Origin: Berryella intestinalis
Lineage (GTDB): Bacteria > Actinomycetota > Coriobacteriia > Coriobacteriales > Eggerthellaceae
Reading direction: 5' to 3'
Assembly (NCBI RefSeq): GCF_000814825.1
Contig: NZ_CP009302.1
Span: 1,860,001 to 1,924,000 of the forward strand
Length of the DNA stretch: 64,000 nucleotides
The notes under the pieces are model-generated. The model was not told the DNA's origin, made no database searches, and saw only the letters and a program-made list of their open reading frames with translations. How positions within the stretch are numbered: position 1 is the stretch's first letter; each line of letters starts with the position of its first letter. The translations under genes were made by a program, and so were the position numbers. Shown piece by piece: positions 5,325 to 63,439 of this stretch.

Positions 5325-7322
5325 ATGTCTTCGATCGAGAGGATCGCGCATCATGACGCGCGGATGATCAAGGTTGTCGGCGCAGCTCGCACGGGAAAAA
5401 CCGAAACCCTGCTGGAACGGTGCGCCGCGCTGGTAAGCGCCGGAGCCGACCCTTCCCGCATCTTCGTAGAGACGGCCACGCCCTTCGCCGCCGACGCCTT
5501 CCGCGTTCGCCTTCGCGCGAAGATCGGGAAAGACGCGGCCGACATGACCGTCTGCACAGCCACCCAGATGGCAGCCTTCCTGCTGGGAAACCCCGCGGCG
5601 ATCCGCGATACCGGACGGATTCCCCGTCTCGTCACCGATGCCGAGCGGAAGTTCCTCCTGGAAGACCTGAAGACCACGGGGTTGAAAGTGCGTGCGATGC
5701 GCGGCATGTTGGATAGGTTCCGCGACAAGTGGTGCGCCCTCGAAAGCGAATCGACCTGGCTGGTAGACAGCGAAGAAGCAGGCGTCCACGCGTTTCTTCT
5801 GGAGCGCCTCGAGGCCTACGGCGCGATGCTTCCGGAAGAAGCGGCCCGTCTCACCGTCGACTTCCTGCGCTCCGATCGGGACCGGGGTCGCGAGCTTCGC
5901 TTCGACTACGTGCTGTGCGACGACTTCCAGAACATGACGTGCGCCGAACAGACGATGTGCTGCCTTCTGGCGAGCAAGCAGATGATGGTCACGGGAAACC
6001 AGAACCAAACTACCCGGATCGACAACCTGCCGCCGCATCCCCGGGGATTCGAGGACTTTGACGCACTGCGCCATGACGTCGACGTTTTCACCCTCGATAC
6101 CGCATTCGCAAACCCCGCAGCCCAGAGGTTTGCCGAAGCAGCGCTCGGAGAAGGGGGGCTTGACGCCTCGATCCGATCCGCACGCACGGACGACGCCCCC
6201 GCAGGTCGCGCTGGCACTCCCGTCAACCCGGGAGAGAGAATGCTCAAGGGCGGGCAGAGCGGCTCGTCGCAGAACGGAGGGGTTCGCGTCGTTTCATGGA
6301 ACAACCCCGACGAAGAGCTGAACGGAATGACCAAGTACCTCCGCTTCCTCGCCAACCAAGACCCCGAGAACTTCTCGAAAAACACCCTGGTCGTCGTTCC
6401 GAATGCGCTTTGGGCGCGCTCGGTCGGGAGGCTCTTGCGCACGCGCGGGTTTTCGGTAACCACCGCTGGAACCGGCGTGTCGTTCGGCGGAGACCCGCGC
6501 GAACGGGACCGTTGCAAAGCGCTTACCGCCTACCTGAAACTGAACCTTCTGGCGAACCCCGCCGATCCGATGGCGTGGCGCTGCTGGACGGGCATCGGGA
6601 ACTACCTTGCCAACAGCGATGCCTGGGGAAGCTTCTTCGCTTTCATGAACGAGCACGGCTTGGGCCTGGTCGAGGCTCTGAACCTGGCAAGCTCCCAAGA
6701 TGGCGAGGTTTCTCTGCGTTCGAGCGCCCTCACCGATGCCTATCGCGAAGGCGTCGCGTTCATCGAGGCGAACAGCGGGCGGAAAGGGTTCGCGCTCATG
6801 CGGGCCATCGGAGCCGAGGGGCTTCGGGAATTCGCCGACGTGTTCGATGCCCTCGCGGGCGATGAAAGCGCCGGGGAGCTGTTCGCAATCGTGCGCACCA
6901 TGGCATTGTTCCCGCACTTCATCGGCCCTTCGGATAAACTGCGCATCATGTATGCCCCCTACCTGTGCGGCCTTGAAGCGGAAAACGTGTTCGTCCTGGG
7001 GGCGATCGACGGGTTCTACCCTCCGCGCGATGCGTTCGAGGTGGTCAGCACGGAGGGCGAACGCAGGTCGCGTACCGAGCGAAACCGGCGCTCGTTTTTC
7101 TCGGCGACGTCGAAGGCTACGGGATCCCTTACGCTCTCAACCTTCTCGAAAGCGCCGCTCGAACTTGCCGAGCAAGCAAAAATGCAGGTCTCACGCGTGC
7201 GAAGCGAAGGCGGCGAGCGCATTGCCCTTGTCCGCCCCAGTATGTTCCTAGACGAGGCATCGACCGCCTACCCCGGATTCACGGGCGGCCAGCAATTGAT
7301 GATGGAGCACCATCTGGCTTGA
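5325..7322 (+). CDS. UvrD/Rep-like superfamily I helicase, divergent
   Basis: This 665-residue protein has a Walker A motif near residue 20 (GAARTGKTET) and a Walker B-like YVLCDDFQN near residue 195. A downstream segment, LEAENVFVLGAIDGFYPP, matches the helicase motif V region of UvrD/PcrA. The motif VI position reads RRSFFSATSKATGSL, a divergent form of the usual RRLFYVALTRA. Overall order and spacing fit an SF1A ATPase shorter than UvrD (about 720) with weakened motifs, so helicase activity is not assured. AddB-like or RecB-like roles are possible. It is coupled to the upstream unknown gene by a two-base gap. The family is fairly certain; the function is not. Confidence 0.8.
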   Translation: MSSIERIAHHDARMIKVVGAARTGKTETLLERCAALVSAGADPSRIFVETATPFAADAFRVRLRAKIGKDAADMTVCTATQMAAFLLGNPAAIRDTGRIPRLVTDAERKFLLEDLKTTGLKVRAMRGMLDRFRDKWCALESESTWLVDSEEAGVHAFLLERLEAYGAMLPEEAARLTVDFLRSDRDRGRELRFDYVLCDDFQNMTCAEQTMCCLLASKQMMVTGNQNQTTRIDNLPPHPRGFEDFDALRHDVDVFTLDTAFANPAAQRFAEAALGEGGLDASIRSARTDDAPAGRAGTPVNPGERMLKGGQSGSSQNGGVRVVSWNNPDEELNGMTKYLRFLANQDPENFSKNTLVVVPNALWARSVGRLLRTRGFSVTTAGTGVSFGGDPRERDRCKALTAYLKLNLLANPADPMAWRCWTGIGNYLANSDAWGSFFAFMNEHGLGLVEALNLASSQDGEVSLRSSALTDAYREGVAFIEANSGRKGFALMRAIGAEGLREFADVFDALAGDESAGELFAIVRTMALFPHFIGPSDKLRIMYAPYLCGLEAENVFVLGAIDGFYPPRDAFEVVSTEGERRSRTERNRRSFFSATSKATGSLTLSTFSKAPLELAEQAKMQVSRVRSEGGERIALVRPSMFLDEASTAYPGFTGGQQLMMEHHLA

Positions 7323-58199: not shown

Positions 58200-61100
58200 C
58201 TAGAGCGCGCGGTCGCCTTTCTTCCTGCGGAGCGCAAACGCTCCCAGCAAGCCGGCACCGGCAACCAGGGCGATAGCCCCGACGGCCCATGCCACGGTCT
58301 CGCCCGTCTTGGGCATGACCGTCACCTTCGCCAACGGCTTCTCGCCAGCAGGCGCGGGCGGAACGGGCTGCGGCTCGTCCGGAACCGACGGCGCAGGCGG
58401 AGTGGGATCATCCGGAACCGGAGGCGCGGGCGGGGTGGGATCGCCCGGATCGGGCGTCTTGGGCTTGTGGGTGTTGACGATGTCGTAACCCTCGACCGAA
58501 GACTCGTAGCCCTCAACCGCTTCCTCCGTCACGCTGTAGACGTACGCGTGGCCGTCGGCAGCATCGTATTTGGGCAGATCGGCGAACTTATACGTCCAGG
58601 ATCCGTCAGCGGCGGGCTTGACCTCCTGCGAACTCACCTTGACGCCGTCCCTCATCAGGTTGACGGTGATGGAGCCGGGGCGGATGCCGTCGCTGTTCTC
58701 GTTATCGTTCCAGGTCTTCTTGCCGGAAACGTCGATCTTGGGATCTGCGATAACGACGCCCACGCGCTCGGGTTCCGTAGGCAGAAGGCCGTTGGTGGTC
58801 ATCGCGAACGAGTTCCATGCCGCCTTCAGCTCGTTTTCCTCGGTACGGGTATCGGGCAGCTCGGAGAACACCACCGAAGCGTCATCGAGCTCGCCGAGTT
58901 CGGGAGCCTTCATATGGAAGGTGAACTCGATGTCCTGACCCTTCAGCCACGTAACGCCGTCCTTCAGCTGCAGCTTGAAGCTGTGGATGGCCGACCAGTC
59001 CGTCACCTCGGAAGCAAGCTTCCACTCCGGATCCGCGGCGTCGGCGGGGTTCTCGTGCTGGTAGGCCCCGGTGCTGTAGTTCACCGTGCTGTACAGATCG
59101 TCGCGCTTGGGGTTCTTGGAGGCGCTGTAGTAGACGTCCACCTTGTCCGCCCAATCGGCCGGCAGGGTGATGGCGCCGGTCATCACCGGGGTGAAGGCGC
59201 TTCCGCGATCGGAGTTGTCCACGATGCCCTTATCGCCCACAGAGGGCAGGACGTCGATGAATCCCATGCGGAAGATATCGTTGCCCGTGGTGTTCGTCAT
59301 GTAGATCTTGTAGTCGATCCCGCCACCGGGAAGCGTGCGGCCGAACAGCGAGAACTCGTCGTCGAGCGCGCCTTTCACGTACTTCTTGATGCGCAGGTCG
59401 TTGTCCGAGTACTTCACGTAGCTCTTCTCGACCTTGATGCGATCCTGGTCCGTGGCGCCGTCGTGATCGATATCATCGGCGTCGGTCTCCACCTTGTTCG
59501 ACGAATTCGCAGCGGTGAGCACATCGTCGGTGGAGCTGGTTCCCCACATGGTCAGGGGCAGCTGATCGGGTGAATTCTTGGTGATCTCGACGTCGAAGTA
59601 CGCATCGGCGCGCTGCCACGGAAGCAGCGTGGTCTGATCCCAGTCGATGTGCACCAGCTGCTGGCCGGTGCCGTTGTAGTTCTCGTCCAGAATCGAGAAG
59701 TGGCCGGGCGTCGCATACTGCTGGCGGCCGAAGCGCAGGCTGTCGATCTTGTAGGAGGCGTTCGGGTCGGACTTGACCTTCACGCCGTAGGGCAGAAGGA
59801 CCGTCGAGCTGATCTGCTTGTCCAGGTTGTCGTTGCTGTTCGTGTTGTTGAACATGCGGACATGGACCTGGTTGTCGCCCACCGCAACGACGTTGCCGTC
59901 CTTCTTCATGAACTCGACGGTGGCCAGAACGATCGGGTTGGAGACGGGCTTCTCGCCCACGGTAACCTGACGCGGGCCGACCAGATCGGTCACTTCGGTG
60001 GAAGTGCGGCGATAGGTGGTGCCGTCCGCCAGGGTGGGAACGAAGGTGACGCCCCACTTGAACGTGCCGCGGGCGCCGTCCTTGATATCGAAGAGGGGCT
60101 CGTTCTGAAGGCCAAGGCGGCCGTTGAGCTTGGACCCGTCCTCCATCTCGTACGTAATGGAGTAGCTGGTGATCTCATCGGCATCGGTCAGACCCATATC
60201 GTAGATGGTCACCTGCACGTTGCCCGTCACCTTGTTGGCGGTCTTGTTCCAATCCACCACGTGGGAGCGGGTCGAGCCGTCTTTCAGGGTGACGGTCAGG
60301 GTCGTCTTGGGAAGAACCGGAAGGGGAAGACGGCCCAAATTGTATTCGTAGTATATGTGGGGCGTGTAAATGGTAACGGCCCTGAACTGCAGCGCATCAT
60401 CGTAGGTGTACTCGTTCACGAGCTTCTTGTACCCGTCTTTGAGAATCGAGTTGTTCTGGTTCCAGAGCGAGCGATCCACGGGGTTCCCGGTGGAGTCGAA
60501 CAGCTTCTCGTCTCCAGAAATCCCCGTGAAGTAGGTGTCCTGGAAGCGGACCATGGCATCATCAGCCACGACGGGGTTGGGATTGGGGTGATTCTCGTTG
60601 TTTCCGTTGCTCACGTTCCCGTTCCCGTTAACGGGACCGACCGTATAAGGCACAACAATATCGCCCTCGGGAAGAGGCACATCGTTGCCGCCGGGCGCGA
60701 TCAGGGCTTCCGCCTTACCCGCAGCCGTCTTGGTCTGATCCTCGATGGAAACCGCCGAGATGGTAACGTTGTTCGGCACCTTGGTGTATGCGCTGATCGA
60801 CGCATCGGTACCCGTCGTCAACAGGATCTCGCAAGCGAACAGGGTGGTGCCCGCCGCTTTCTGGGCTTCGAGGGAAGGAGCCTTGAACGTCCACGTGACG
60901 GTGTCGCCGTTCACCGTGCGATCGACCAGATCGGCTCCCGACACCGTGGCGTCGGAAAACGTCAGGCGGGAATCGAGCTTATCGGTGATGGTGATGATGC
61001 TGCCCGGCTTGATGTACTGGCCGGCGGTATCGGCAAGGGTCACCGAACCTTTGATGGACCACACGACCTCCTCGCCCGGCTTCGCCACGGTCTGCGAGGG

Positions 61101-61682
61101 ATCGCTGGAAACGACCTTCGAGAACGCCTTGGTGATCGTCGGCTGGAAAGCGGAGGTGATCGCGATCTTGGCTTCGGCCGATTCTGCCAGCACCGCGCCG
61201 CTCTCGCTCTTCAGCGTTGCCGTGGCGACAAGCGACGTGTCGTTCGGCGTGATGCCGTTCTTGGTCAGTAGCCCGATGTGGAGGCGGGCAGAAAGCCCGG
61301 TCTGCAGATTGGGAAGCTTGTACGTAAGCGTGCGTGCCTGCTGATCGTAGGTAGGCTGCACTCCGTTGATTGCCAGATCGGCCAGAGGCGTCTGCAGATC
61401 GTAGTAGGCGGCCGTGTCCTTCGGCAGCTGGACGACCAGCGTCGCAGCCGAACCGTAGCTCTCCTGGATGCTTTCCTGGGAGCCGGCCACCTTCACGTCC
61501 AGCTGTAAGACGCCCGTCGTGCCGGATTTAACCGACGGGGTTGTGCTTGTGAGCGTCAGATCGGCGTTAGCGTCGTTTTTGGCCAACGCCGTGCTCGGAA
61601 ACACGAGCATCAGCGAGAAAGCCAGAGCGAACGCTAAGACAATGCGCAACCCCCCCCCCGCACTTTCAAAATATCGTTTCAT
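58200..61682 (-). CDS. Large LPXTG-type surface protein, phase-variable candidate
   Basis: 1160 residues from the ATG at 61682 (AGAAAGGGACGAGA upstream). A Sec signal peptide (residues 1-34, ending TALAKND) precedes several immunoglobulin- or isopeptide-like domains; residues about 990-1090 form a Cna-B domain (VSGKKTWNDNENSDG, GIRPGSITVNLMRDG). A proline-rich spacer with PTPPAPPVPDD-type repeats precedes the sortase motif MPKTGE, a hydrophobic helix and a basic tail (LRRKKGDRAL). It should be covalently attached to the wall. Codons 8-11 contain a run of ten G residues (61650-61659). No sortase gene is in the window. Confidence 0.9.
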   Translation of the reverse strand: MKRYFESAGGGLRIVLAFALAFSLMLVFPSTALAKNDANADLTLTSTTPSVKSGTTGVLQLDVKVAGSQESIQESYGSAATLVVQLPKDTAAYYDLQTPLADLAINGVQPTYDQQARTLTYKLPNLQTGLSARLHIGLLTKNGITPNDTSLVATATLKSESGAVLAESAEAKIAITSAFQPTITKAFSKVVSSDPSQTVAKPGEEVVWSIKGSVTLADTAGQYIKPGSIITITDKLDSRLTFSDATVSGADLVDRTVNGDTVTWTFKAPSLEAQKAAGTTLFACEILLTTGTDASISAYTKVPNNVTISAVSIEDQTKTAAGKAEALIAPGGNDVPLPEGDIVVPYTVGPVNGNGNVSNGNNENHPNPNPVVADDAMVRFQDTYFTGISGDEKLFDSTGNPVDRSLWNQNNSILKDGYKKLVNEYTYDDALQFRAVTIYTPHIYYEYNLGRLPLPVLPKTTLTVTLKDGSTRSHVVDWNKTANKVTGNVQVTIYDMGLTDADEITSYSITYEMEDGSKLNGRLGLQNEPLFDIKDGARGTFKWGVTFVPTLADGTTYRRTSTEVTDLVGPRQVTVGEKPVSNPIVLATVEFMKKDGNVVAVGDNQVHVRMFNNTNSNDNLDKQISSTVLLPYGVKVKSDPNASYKIDSLRFGRQQYATPGHFSILDENYNGTGQQLVHIDWDQTTLLPWQRADAYFDVEITKNSPDQLPLTMWGTSSTDDVLTAANSSNKVETDADDIDHDGATDQDRIKVEKSYVKYSDNDLRIKKYVKGALDDEFSLFGRTLPGGGIDYKIYMTNTTGNDIFRMGFIDVLPSVGDKGIVDNSDRGSAFTPVMTGAITLPADWADKVDVYYSASKNPKRDDLYSTVNYSTGAYQHENPADAADPEWKLASEVTDWSAIHSFKLQLKDGVTWLKGQDIEFTFHMKAPELGELDDASVVFSELPDTRTEENELKAAWNSFAMTTNGLLPTEPERVGVVIADPKIDVSGKKTWNDNENSDGIRPGSITVNLMRDGVKVSSQEVKPAADGSWTYKFADLPKYDAADGHAYVYSVTEEAVEGYESSVEGYDIVNTHKPKTPDPGDPTPPAPPVPDDPTPPAPSVPDEPQPVPPAPAGEKPLAKVTVMPKTGETVAWAVGAIALVAGAGLLGAFALRRKKGDRAL
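61650..61659 (-). repeat. G10 homopolymer in the signal-peptide codons
   Basis: Ten C on the plus strand (ten G in the mRNA) encode Ala-Gly-Gly-Gly at residues 8-11. Gain or loss of one base moves translation into frames that stop within about 30 codons, so the tract would switch the protein on or off. Confidence 0.85.
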
Positions 61683-62000
61683 TCTCGTCCCTTTCTCCGT
61701 AGTCGGGCCTTCCTCATTCTTACCGAAGCGCATACGAAACCACACCTACTGGTGGTACGCAATATAATAGCTTGCCACATCACAAAAACTCGCCGAATTA
61801 TGTTGCAAAATACGCTACACCGAAGATTTCTTCGCGATCAGCGAGAAGGCTTTCCCCTTTTGCGAGACTAGCGCCCTTCGATAACACCGTAATGCACGGC
61901 GCAGGGCGATTCGGCCGGGCGAGCGCAAGCGAGCCCCATCCGCACAGCGGGCGGTTTTTTGCGCCGCGCTTCGCGAGGCACACTCGCCAGGCTAAAGCCA
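61683..62000. other. Gene-free region upstream of the large surface protein
   Basis: About 320 bases between the two surface protein genes. The part near 61740-61830 is AT-rich and probably holds the promoter of the large protein, but no convincing -35/-10 pair was identified. No gene is supported. Confidence 0.5.
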
Positions 62001-62037
62001 TAAAAAAGAAAGCCGCCAGCTTGTGCCGACGGCTTTC
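62001..62037 (-). terminator. Terminator of the smaller surface protein
   Basis: GAAAGCCG / CGGCTTTC (62008-62037) with a 14-base loop; on the minus strand TTTTTTA follows. It lies about 30 bases after the stop codon. Confidence 0.8.
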
Positions 62038-62068: not shown

Positions 62069-63439
62069 CTACTTGCTCAGGCGACGCAGGCGCGCAAGGG
62101 CGACGCCAGCCGCACCGACCAGGGTAGCAAGGATTCCCGCCACGGGCAGGGCGGCGTCCCCGGTCTGGGGAAGGGCGGCCGAAGCCTTGACCGTCTTCTG
62201 GACGGGGGCAGCGTCGGACGCAGCGACGGTCTTCTCGGCTGCGGGCTTCTCCGCAACCTCGGTGACAGCAGAGGTCTCCGCCTTGGGAGATTCCGGAGTC
62301 ACCTTGGGATCGGTCGGCTTGGGGTCGACGGGTTTGGGATCCACAGGCTGGGGGTCGACGAGCTTCGGCTCATCGGGGGTCTTCTCGGGCTCGATCGGGG
62401 TGGCCGGAGTGAGGTCCGTCCACGGAATGCTCTCGATCACCTTGAAGGTCAGCGAGATGGCATCCTTCTCGGGGCCTTCCAGCGACTTGCGGGTGAAGTC
62501 GGTGCCGTCAGATCCAAGCGTCGTTCCGACGCCCTTGTCCTGCAGCGCGGGGCCCCATACGAAGTTGAAGGGGATCTCCATGCCGCCGAACTTGGCAGTC
62601 GCTTCCATCTCGCCCGACACCTTGCCGTAGACGGTGTACTGCTTGCCCGCCTCGGTCCCATCGAGTCCGACGCCCTTGGCCAGAAGCGTGAGGTAGTTGG
62701 GCTCGGCGAACACGGCCGTGTGCAGCTTATCGTACGTGGAGTACGCCGCGGGGTCCTTCAGCATGAAGCCGATCCCGACCTCGGTGCTTCCATCGGGAAG
62801 CTGCGTGATCTCGAGGACGTCCGAGAACGTGAACATACCGCTTTCCGGGCCGCCGGCATAGTTGGAGCCCTGCAGGCTCTTGAACGCATACGAAGCGGCG
62901 TCGGTCGGCGCGACAACGCCCTTGGGGAAGGTGATCGTAACATTGAAGTTGGATTTGACGTTGCTCAGAGCGATCGCCGAACCCGGCACGGGGCCGTTGG
63001 GGAAGTAGGCCTTCTCGATATCGGACATGTTGTTCTTGATGGCCGAAGTGCCAAATGCGAAGCCGAAGTCCAGCTTATCGGTACGGGCGGCCTTGTACAC
63101 CTCGGTGTTCTCGGTGTCGAAAGCCGACTCCCCGGACTTGGCCACGGCGATGTCGCCCGTTGGAATGTAGTTGTCCGCAGGAGCGGCGTCCTGGGCGCCC
63201 AGCTGGTTGGCGGGCTGCTCGGCAGCCGGTGCGGCGGCTGCGGGCGCTTCGGCAACCGGCGCGGCGGCTGCGGGCACCTCAGCGGCCGCCTGTGCGCTGG
63301 AAGCCTCGGGCGCTACAGCGTTGGAGGGCTGGGGCGCTTCCGCGGCGGTTGCGCCGTCGGTGGCGCCCAGCGCCGTGGCGGGAGCCAGCGTGGAGCACAG
63401 GGCCACCGAAAGAATGACTGACGTTGCTCGTTTTTTCAT
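62069..63439 (-). CDS. LPXTG-anchored surface protein
   Basis: 456 residues with a Sec signal peptide (residues 1-25, ATALGATDG). Residues 28-85 are alanine/proline-rich. A globular domain at about residues 90-335 is not recognised. Then come proline repeats (VDPQPVDPKPVDPKP, residues 350-375), a low-complexity stalk and the anchor ALPQTGDAALPVAGILATLVGAAG with a final RLRRLSK. It should be anchored to peptidoglycan by sortase A. Its terminator separates it from the larger surface protein gene downstream. Confidence 0.9.
   Translation of the reverse strand: MKKRATSVILSVALCSTLAPATALGATDGATAAEAPQPSNAVAPEASSAQAAAEVPAAAAPVAEAPAAAAPAAEQPANQLGAQDAAPADNYIPTGDIAVAKSGESAFDTENTEVYKAARTDKLDFGFAFGTSAIKNNMSDIEKAYFPNGPVPGSAIALSNVKSNFNVTITFPKGVVAPTDAASYAFKSLQGSNYAGGPESGMFTFSDVLEITQLPDGSTEVGIGFMLKDPAAYSTYDKLHTAVFAEPNYLTLLAKGVGLDGTEAGKQYTVYGKVSGEMEATAKFGGMEIPFNFVWGPALQDKGVGTTLGSDGTDFTRKSLEGPEKDAISLTFKVIESIPWTDLTPATPIEPEKTPDEPKLVDPQPVDPKPVDPKPTDPKVTPESPKAETSAVTEVAEKPAAEKTVAASDAAPVQKTVKASAALPQTGDAALPVAGILATLVGAAGVALARLRRLSK

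Follow-up and report, generated by a model that had tools for sequence, protein, structure and literature searches.

A ten-G tract in the signal-peptide codons of a wall-anchored adhesin gene of Berryella intestinalis is very probably a slipped-strand phase-variation switch

In Neisseria, Helicobacter and Campylobacter, poly-G contingency loci (e.g., SabA and HmbR) are located at the coding start or in the promoter of genes for surface adhesins and receptors, and confer stochastic ON/OFF expression. The initial annotation of the locus described here knew of no such example in its family, and our search, which covered the open-access literature, likewise found no report of slippage-based phase variation in Eggerthella or the Coriobacteriia. 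The same mechanism has, however, been demonstrated in another class of the same phylum, in the sortase-pilus genes of Bifidobacterium breve (PMC9187656). In B. breve UCC2003, two sortase-pilus operons (bbr_0113 and bbr_1889) have G-tracts of variable length close to their beginning; tract length sets the frame between the export signal and the LPXTG part, and in mice the tracts shift toward the ON state (Penno et al. 2022; PMC9187656). These G10–G12 tracts are proven ON/OFF switches, and the authors also mention tracts within promoter spacers (PMC9187656). In Gardnerella, long G/C tracts lie near the starts of genes for surface proteins, of which some have LPXTG, and one of these tracts varies among colonies (PMC11287997). 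In Eggerthella lenta, capsule phase variation occurs via genomic inversion (PMC13174815, preprint).

The window analyzed here is a stretch of 64,000 nucleotides from a genome that consists of a single 1,967,093-bp contig, and its source, Berryella intestinalis, is placed in the Eggerthellaceae by taxonomy. Strain 68-1-3, from which the genome derives, is now filed under this species name. The strain (Coriobacteriaceae) comes from swine ileum and was isolated with a mucin medium; its genome was read by 454 and Illumina sequencing (PMC4599084). The species description is also available (PMC7738495).

Direct reading and a pattern search both recovered the ten consecutive G's that had been placed on the minus strand at codons 8 to 11 (Table 1). 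Specifically, counted from the ATG at 61682, the tract comprises the third base of codon 8 (GCG) and all of codons 9 to 11 (GGG GGG GGG), within the minus-strand sequence ATG AAA CGA TAT TTT GAA AGT GCG GGG GGG GGG TTG CGC. A further in-frame start upstream, GTG 61745, also precedes the tract. The N-terminus encoded from the ATG is MKRYFESAGGGLRIVLAFALAFSLMLVFPSTALA-KNDA..., and the 1160-codon frame continues uninterrupted to its end at 58200, so that the initial description of an otherwise intact, wall-anchored 1160-residue protein was borne out by both the ORF and the frame test. Because the assembly of 454 and Illumina reads is 454-based and weak at homopolymers, the count of ten could be wrong by one.

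The homopolymer is placed where changes in its length would alter expression, as in a contingency locus. In the frame test, tracts of G8, G9, G10, G11 and G12 gave products of 37, 15, 1160, 38 and 16 aa, respectively, lengths 8, 9, 11 and 12 thus leaving 15 to 38 aa. The shifted frames terminate at a TAG within the signal-peptide region (G9 and G12) or at a TAA just beyond it (G8 and G11). The initial annotation had anticipated the TAA soon after the signal peptide, but the stop that it read as TGA inside the signal peptide is actually TAG.

Table 1. Features of the tract gene and its surroundings (window positions) and the other long G tracts of the genome (genome positions)
Feature	Position	Strand	Evidence or location
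G10 homopolymer, proposed slippage site	61650..61659	minus	Direct reading and pattern search
CDS, 1160-aa wall-anchored adhesin/pilin-like protein, ON at G10	58200..61682	minus	Intact ORF and frame test
Predicted signal-peptide codons, MKRYFESAGGGLRIVLAFALAFSLMLVFPSTALA (34 residues)	61581..61682	minus	Read from sequence: tract-bearing n-region, hydrophobic core, ALA cleavage site
Shine-Dalgarno-like AAAGGG, 6 nt before ATG 61682	61689..61694	minus	Sequence
Isopeptide-forming fimbrial domain RrgB_K2N_iso_D2, residues 181-308	60759..61142	minus	NCBIfam TIGR04226, E 1.3e-7, over cut-off
Cna_B domain, residues 985-1071	58470..58730	minus	Pfam PF05738, E 1.3e-27; collagen adhesin 1d2p, E 7.9e-39
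LPXTG-type sorting signal MPKTGE, hydrophobic stretch and RRKKGDRAL tail	58203..58316	minus	Sequence; TIGR01167 LPXTG_anchor over cut-off
Intrinsic terminator downstream of upstream LPXTG gene	62008..62037	minus	13-pair stem then TTTTTT
Upstream neighbor, 456-aa LPXTG protein	62069..63439	minus	ORF; PF00746
G11 tract	372573-372583		Signal-peptide codons of LPXTG gene
G14 tract	1030577-1030590		Ends ~100 bp before ATG of LPXTG gene
G9 tract	1150625-1150633		Intergenic, between luxS-like and queD-like genes (names from reading of translations)

The tract gene encodes a protein with the features of an LPXTG sortase substrate, namely a predicted signal peptide, Cna_B/isopeptide domains, an LPXTG-like motif, a hydrophobic stretch and a basic tail. 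Relatives over most of the 1160 residues are distant: they are enterococcal, with ∼34% identity, and one is annotated as an "isopeptide-forming domain-containing fimbrial protein." Matches on PLSDB plasmids, in Enterococcus and Listeria, show just 29 to 34% identity. A search of the genus found no orthologue beyond the Cna_B and anchor region, and the G10 tract itself therefore cannot be traced across species. The strong terminator between the upstream LPXTG gene and the tract gene suggests that the latter is probably its own transcription unit. The upstream neighbor contains no long homopolymer, the longest G/C run near its start being 4. Sortase matches in the genome are found only at 954390, 1273553 and 1780667; the tract gene lies at genome positions 1918200-1921682, ∼137 kb from the nearest match.

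Similar to the B. breve switch, the Berryella locus belongs to an actinomycetotal gut commensal, the two sharing G9–G12 tracts near the starts of Sec-exported, LPXTG-anchored genes, and tract length would decide the frame shared by signal peptide and anchored protein. Indeed, the tract is located within the export signal of a protein that ends in the MPKTGE anchor. However, in B. breve the gene carrying the tract opens a pilus operon that includes its own sortase, while the Berryella gene stands alone, preceded by a terminator and distant from any sortase match. Also unlike B. breve, the Berryella tract is inside the signal-peptide codons and is ON as deposited. Measured length variation belongs to the B. 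breve case; the Berryella tract is known from one deposited genome of a different class, Coriobacteriia. Gardnerella, of a different family and class, has ∼20 G/C tracts per genome in diverse gene classes, whereas Berryella has three of at least ten G's, all at LPXTG genes. The Neisseria, Helicobacter and Campylobacter targets are Gram-negative outer-membrane or glycan functions rather than sortase-anchored Gram-positive proteins. E. lenta shares the family and reversible surface variation, but its mechanism is the inversion of large segments at capsule clusters rather than slippage in homopolymers.

G/C runs in the window number 390 of length 4, 105 of length 5, 11 of length 6, none of lengths 7 to 9 and one of length 10. 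Because a dinucleotide shuffle of the window expects more long G runs than were observed, the number of long runs is not an excess. The feature that is far from chance is the location of the G≥10 runs. The whole genome contains only four G≥9 runs (G10, G11, G14 and G9; Table 1), and the G9 is the only one away from LPXTG genes. Every G≥10 tract is at an LPXTG 5′ end: two are in signal-peptide codons, and one is ∼100 bp upstream of the start. Such 5′ zones make up 0.39% of the genome, which corresponds to P = 6e-8 for three of three G≥10 tracts inside them and P = 2e-7 for at least three of four G≥9 tracts. Thus, the placement at surface genes is nonrandom, as in contingency loci. Seventeen LPXTG genes were found in the genome, and 14 of these have no G/C run longer than 7 from −300 to +150 of the start.

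The product of the G11 gene is MPRTGD-anchored, is 1237 aa long and contains repeated Cna_B-like units; the tract is in the MLLNKPRYILAPLLALLLAVGIVVA-GGG-ARAFA signal-peptide codons. The gene is in frame at the deposited length, and the four neighboring lengths tested gave products of 32 to 38 aa. The G14 gene encodes an MPGTGD-anchored LPXTG/Cna_B protein, and its leader, GGAGAAAGGGGatcgtATGAAACG, is almost identical to that of the G10 gene, GGAGAAAGGGacgagaATGAAACG. The G14 tract is a probable transcriptional switch. An automatic promoter scan around G14 on the strand of the gene found no sigma-70 site; by eye, the tract could fill the 18-bp spacer of a weak TTGCAT/TAAACG promoter, a reading on which we do not rely.

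To place these tracts among relatives, we surveyed 70 separate G≥10 tracts from 14 genomes, scoring each for the nearby start of an open frame that is 300 aa or longer and has an LPXTG-like C-terminus. Eight of 10 tracts in the genus satisfied this rule versus four of 60 elsewhere (Fisher p = 2e-6). Three of those four are from Cryptobacterium curtum, in which all G≥9 tracts (6/6) are at anchored surface-protein genes; because this species was singled out only after looking, the genus-only test is the fair one. The C. curtum 12-3T genome (1,617,804 bp, 50.9% GC) was finished with Sanger and 454 data. In other Eggerthellaceae genomes (G004, G006, G009, G015 and G027/G036), long tracts show no or almost no surface-gene bias, and we rejected surface-gene targeting across the whole family. 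The pattern is therefore tied to particular lineages and not to long G runs generally. In G006 and G009, G≥10 tracts are numerous and show no preference for surface genes; hence long G runs alone are no proof of switching.

The tracts of relatives were found in several arrangements, each of which, taken singly, could reflect assembly error. A homologue of the G11 adhesin in a congener (L066 in genome G001; 52% identity over 618 aa) has a G10 shortly past the signal peptide (∼6999-7008); the signal-peptide frame stops soon after, and the anchored part continues in another frame. This allele is apparently OFF, judging from its frames, compared with ON in B. intestinalis, the comparison being between different species and resting for L066 on one assembly. 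In another genus, a C9 at the signal-peptide end (L110 in genome G024; ∼7084-7092) is out of frame with a LAKTGD-anchored protein, and in genome G002 a C9 in the same location (L073) encodes PPP and is in frame. In congener G003, a G10 occupies the greater part of the 16-bp spacer in TTGATC-16-TATAAT (L079; 7024-7051), and this promoter stands 114 bp before the start of an MPVTGD-anchored protein. As read from its promoter motifs, the L079 layout is the classic transcriptional form of the tract.

Slipped-strand phase variation is the best explanation of the G10 tract, in line with the phase-variable expression that the initial annotation had proposed as likely. Because the only three G≥10 runs of the genome are all at the starts of wall-anchored genes, and because related species repeat this pattern, the tract is very probably a random on/off switch. 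The placement at LPXTG 5′ ends, the truncation in shifted frames, the layouts in congeners and the failure to find MutS or NucS (see below) all support this reading. An alternative is that translation really begins at TTG 61649, the first codon past the tract, and that the poly-G is a weak Shine-Dalgarno sequence or leader whose length only tunes translation. The TTG does adjoin the tract, the remaining MRIVLAFALAFSLMLVFPSTALA would still be a good, short signal peptide, making expression less tract-dependent, and in C. curtum a G9 tract stands 3 nt before an ATG (L103). We nevertheless consider a TTG start very unlikely, as ATG 61682 has both an AAAGGG Shine-Dalgarno sequence 6 nt upstream (Table 1) and a leader nearly matching that of the G14 gene. 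Moreover, the tract of the G11 gene closes the hydrophobic core, so that starting downstream of it could not yield a signal peptide, and the pattern there needs a cause other than a downstream start.

It is less likely still that the tract is neutral or results from an error in the sequence, that is, an ordinary glycine run of stable length in the tolerant n-region of a protein from a GC-rich genome. The weakness of 454 data at homopolymers would be compatible with this, as would the several G8 sites expected from shuffles of the window. However, in five genes of the window just 26 of 234 glycine codons are GGG, and long runs are rare genome-wide yet concentrated at LPXTG 5′ ends. The layout is also repeated in congeners and in C. 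curtum, for which Sanger data supplemented 454. Least probable of all is slippage of the polymerase or ribosome during expression, which would produce a fixed full-length fraction in every cell and no heritable switching. RNA polymerase is known to slip on long homopolymers, and sequence alone cannot distinguish this process from switching. Slippage during expression, though, predicts conserved out-of-frame tracts, whereas both coding tracts here are in frame and the homologue from the other species is out of frame; in addition, the G14 and L079 tracts are noncoding.

As a slipped-strand switch, the G10 tract would be a contingency locus that turns one of several wall-anchored adhesins ON or OFF. 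During replication, slippage would add G's to the tract or remove them, and these changes would be left uncorrected, since the searches recovered no gene for mismatch repair. With ten G's, as deposited, the mature protein is read in the frame of its signal peptide, and the adhesin would be exported and anchored (ON); length changes that are not multiples of three would end translation after 15 to 38 residues (OFF). The G11 and G14 tracts would switch independently of G10, generating up to eight surface states. The selected trait may be adhesion or immune exposure.

MutS (PF01624) and NucS (PF01939) were sought in the B. intestinalis genome and in seven other Eggerthellaceae, and neither was detected; among 14 control genomes, 11 were positive for MutS and 7 for NucS. 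The lack of detectable MutS/NucS fits unrepaired slippage, although a high rate is not proven by that alone, and it may explain the scarcity of long runs outside switch sites. It also raises the question of homopolymer instability in the Coriobacteriia, and of whether such runs have been selectively cleared everywhere except at surface genes.

A broader interpretation, which we consider reasonably likely, is that Berryella and Cryptobacterium possess a combinatorial adhesin phasome, in which a few LPXTG adhesins are under independent poly-G/poly-C switches, acting in signal peptides (translational) or promoter spacers (transcriptional), in a lineage without MutS and NucS. This would be the first slippage-based phase variation described in the Coriobacteriia; the mechanism itself is known and is apparently undescribed in this class. 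If so, the B. breve switch would extend to a second actinobacterial class, and one mucin-enriched pig-gut isolate would conceal up to eight surface states under a single genome sequence. Mixed populations would therefore be met in strain-level comparisons and adhesion assays, as well as by vaccines or phages directed against such proteins.

Two further arrangements were observed among the relatives. In genome G019, three related open frames (L111, L112 and L113) have a G-tract–encoded GGG motif near the start (GGGFCDS-like) with differing frame states; by the survey rule they are not LPXTG genes. In genome G002, the region upstream of an LPRTDD-anchored gene contains two G10 ends with a scaffold gap (N's) exactly between them (L075; 7079-7198), indicating that the assembly broke at the tract.
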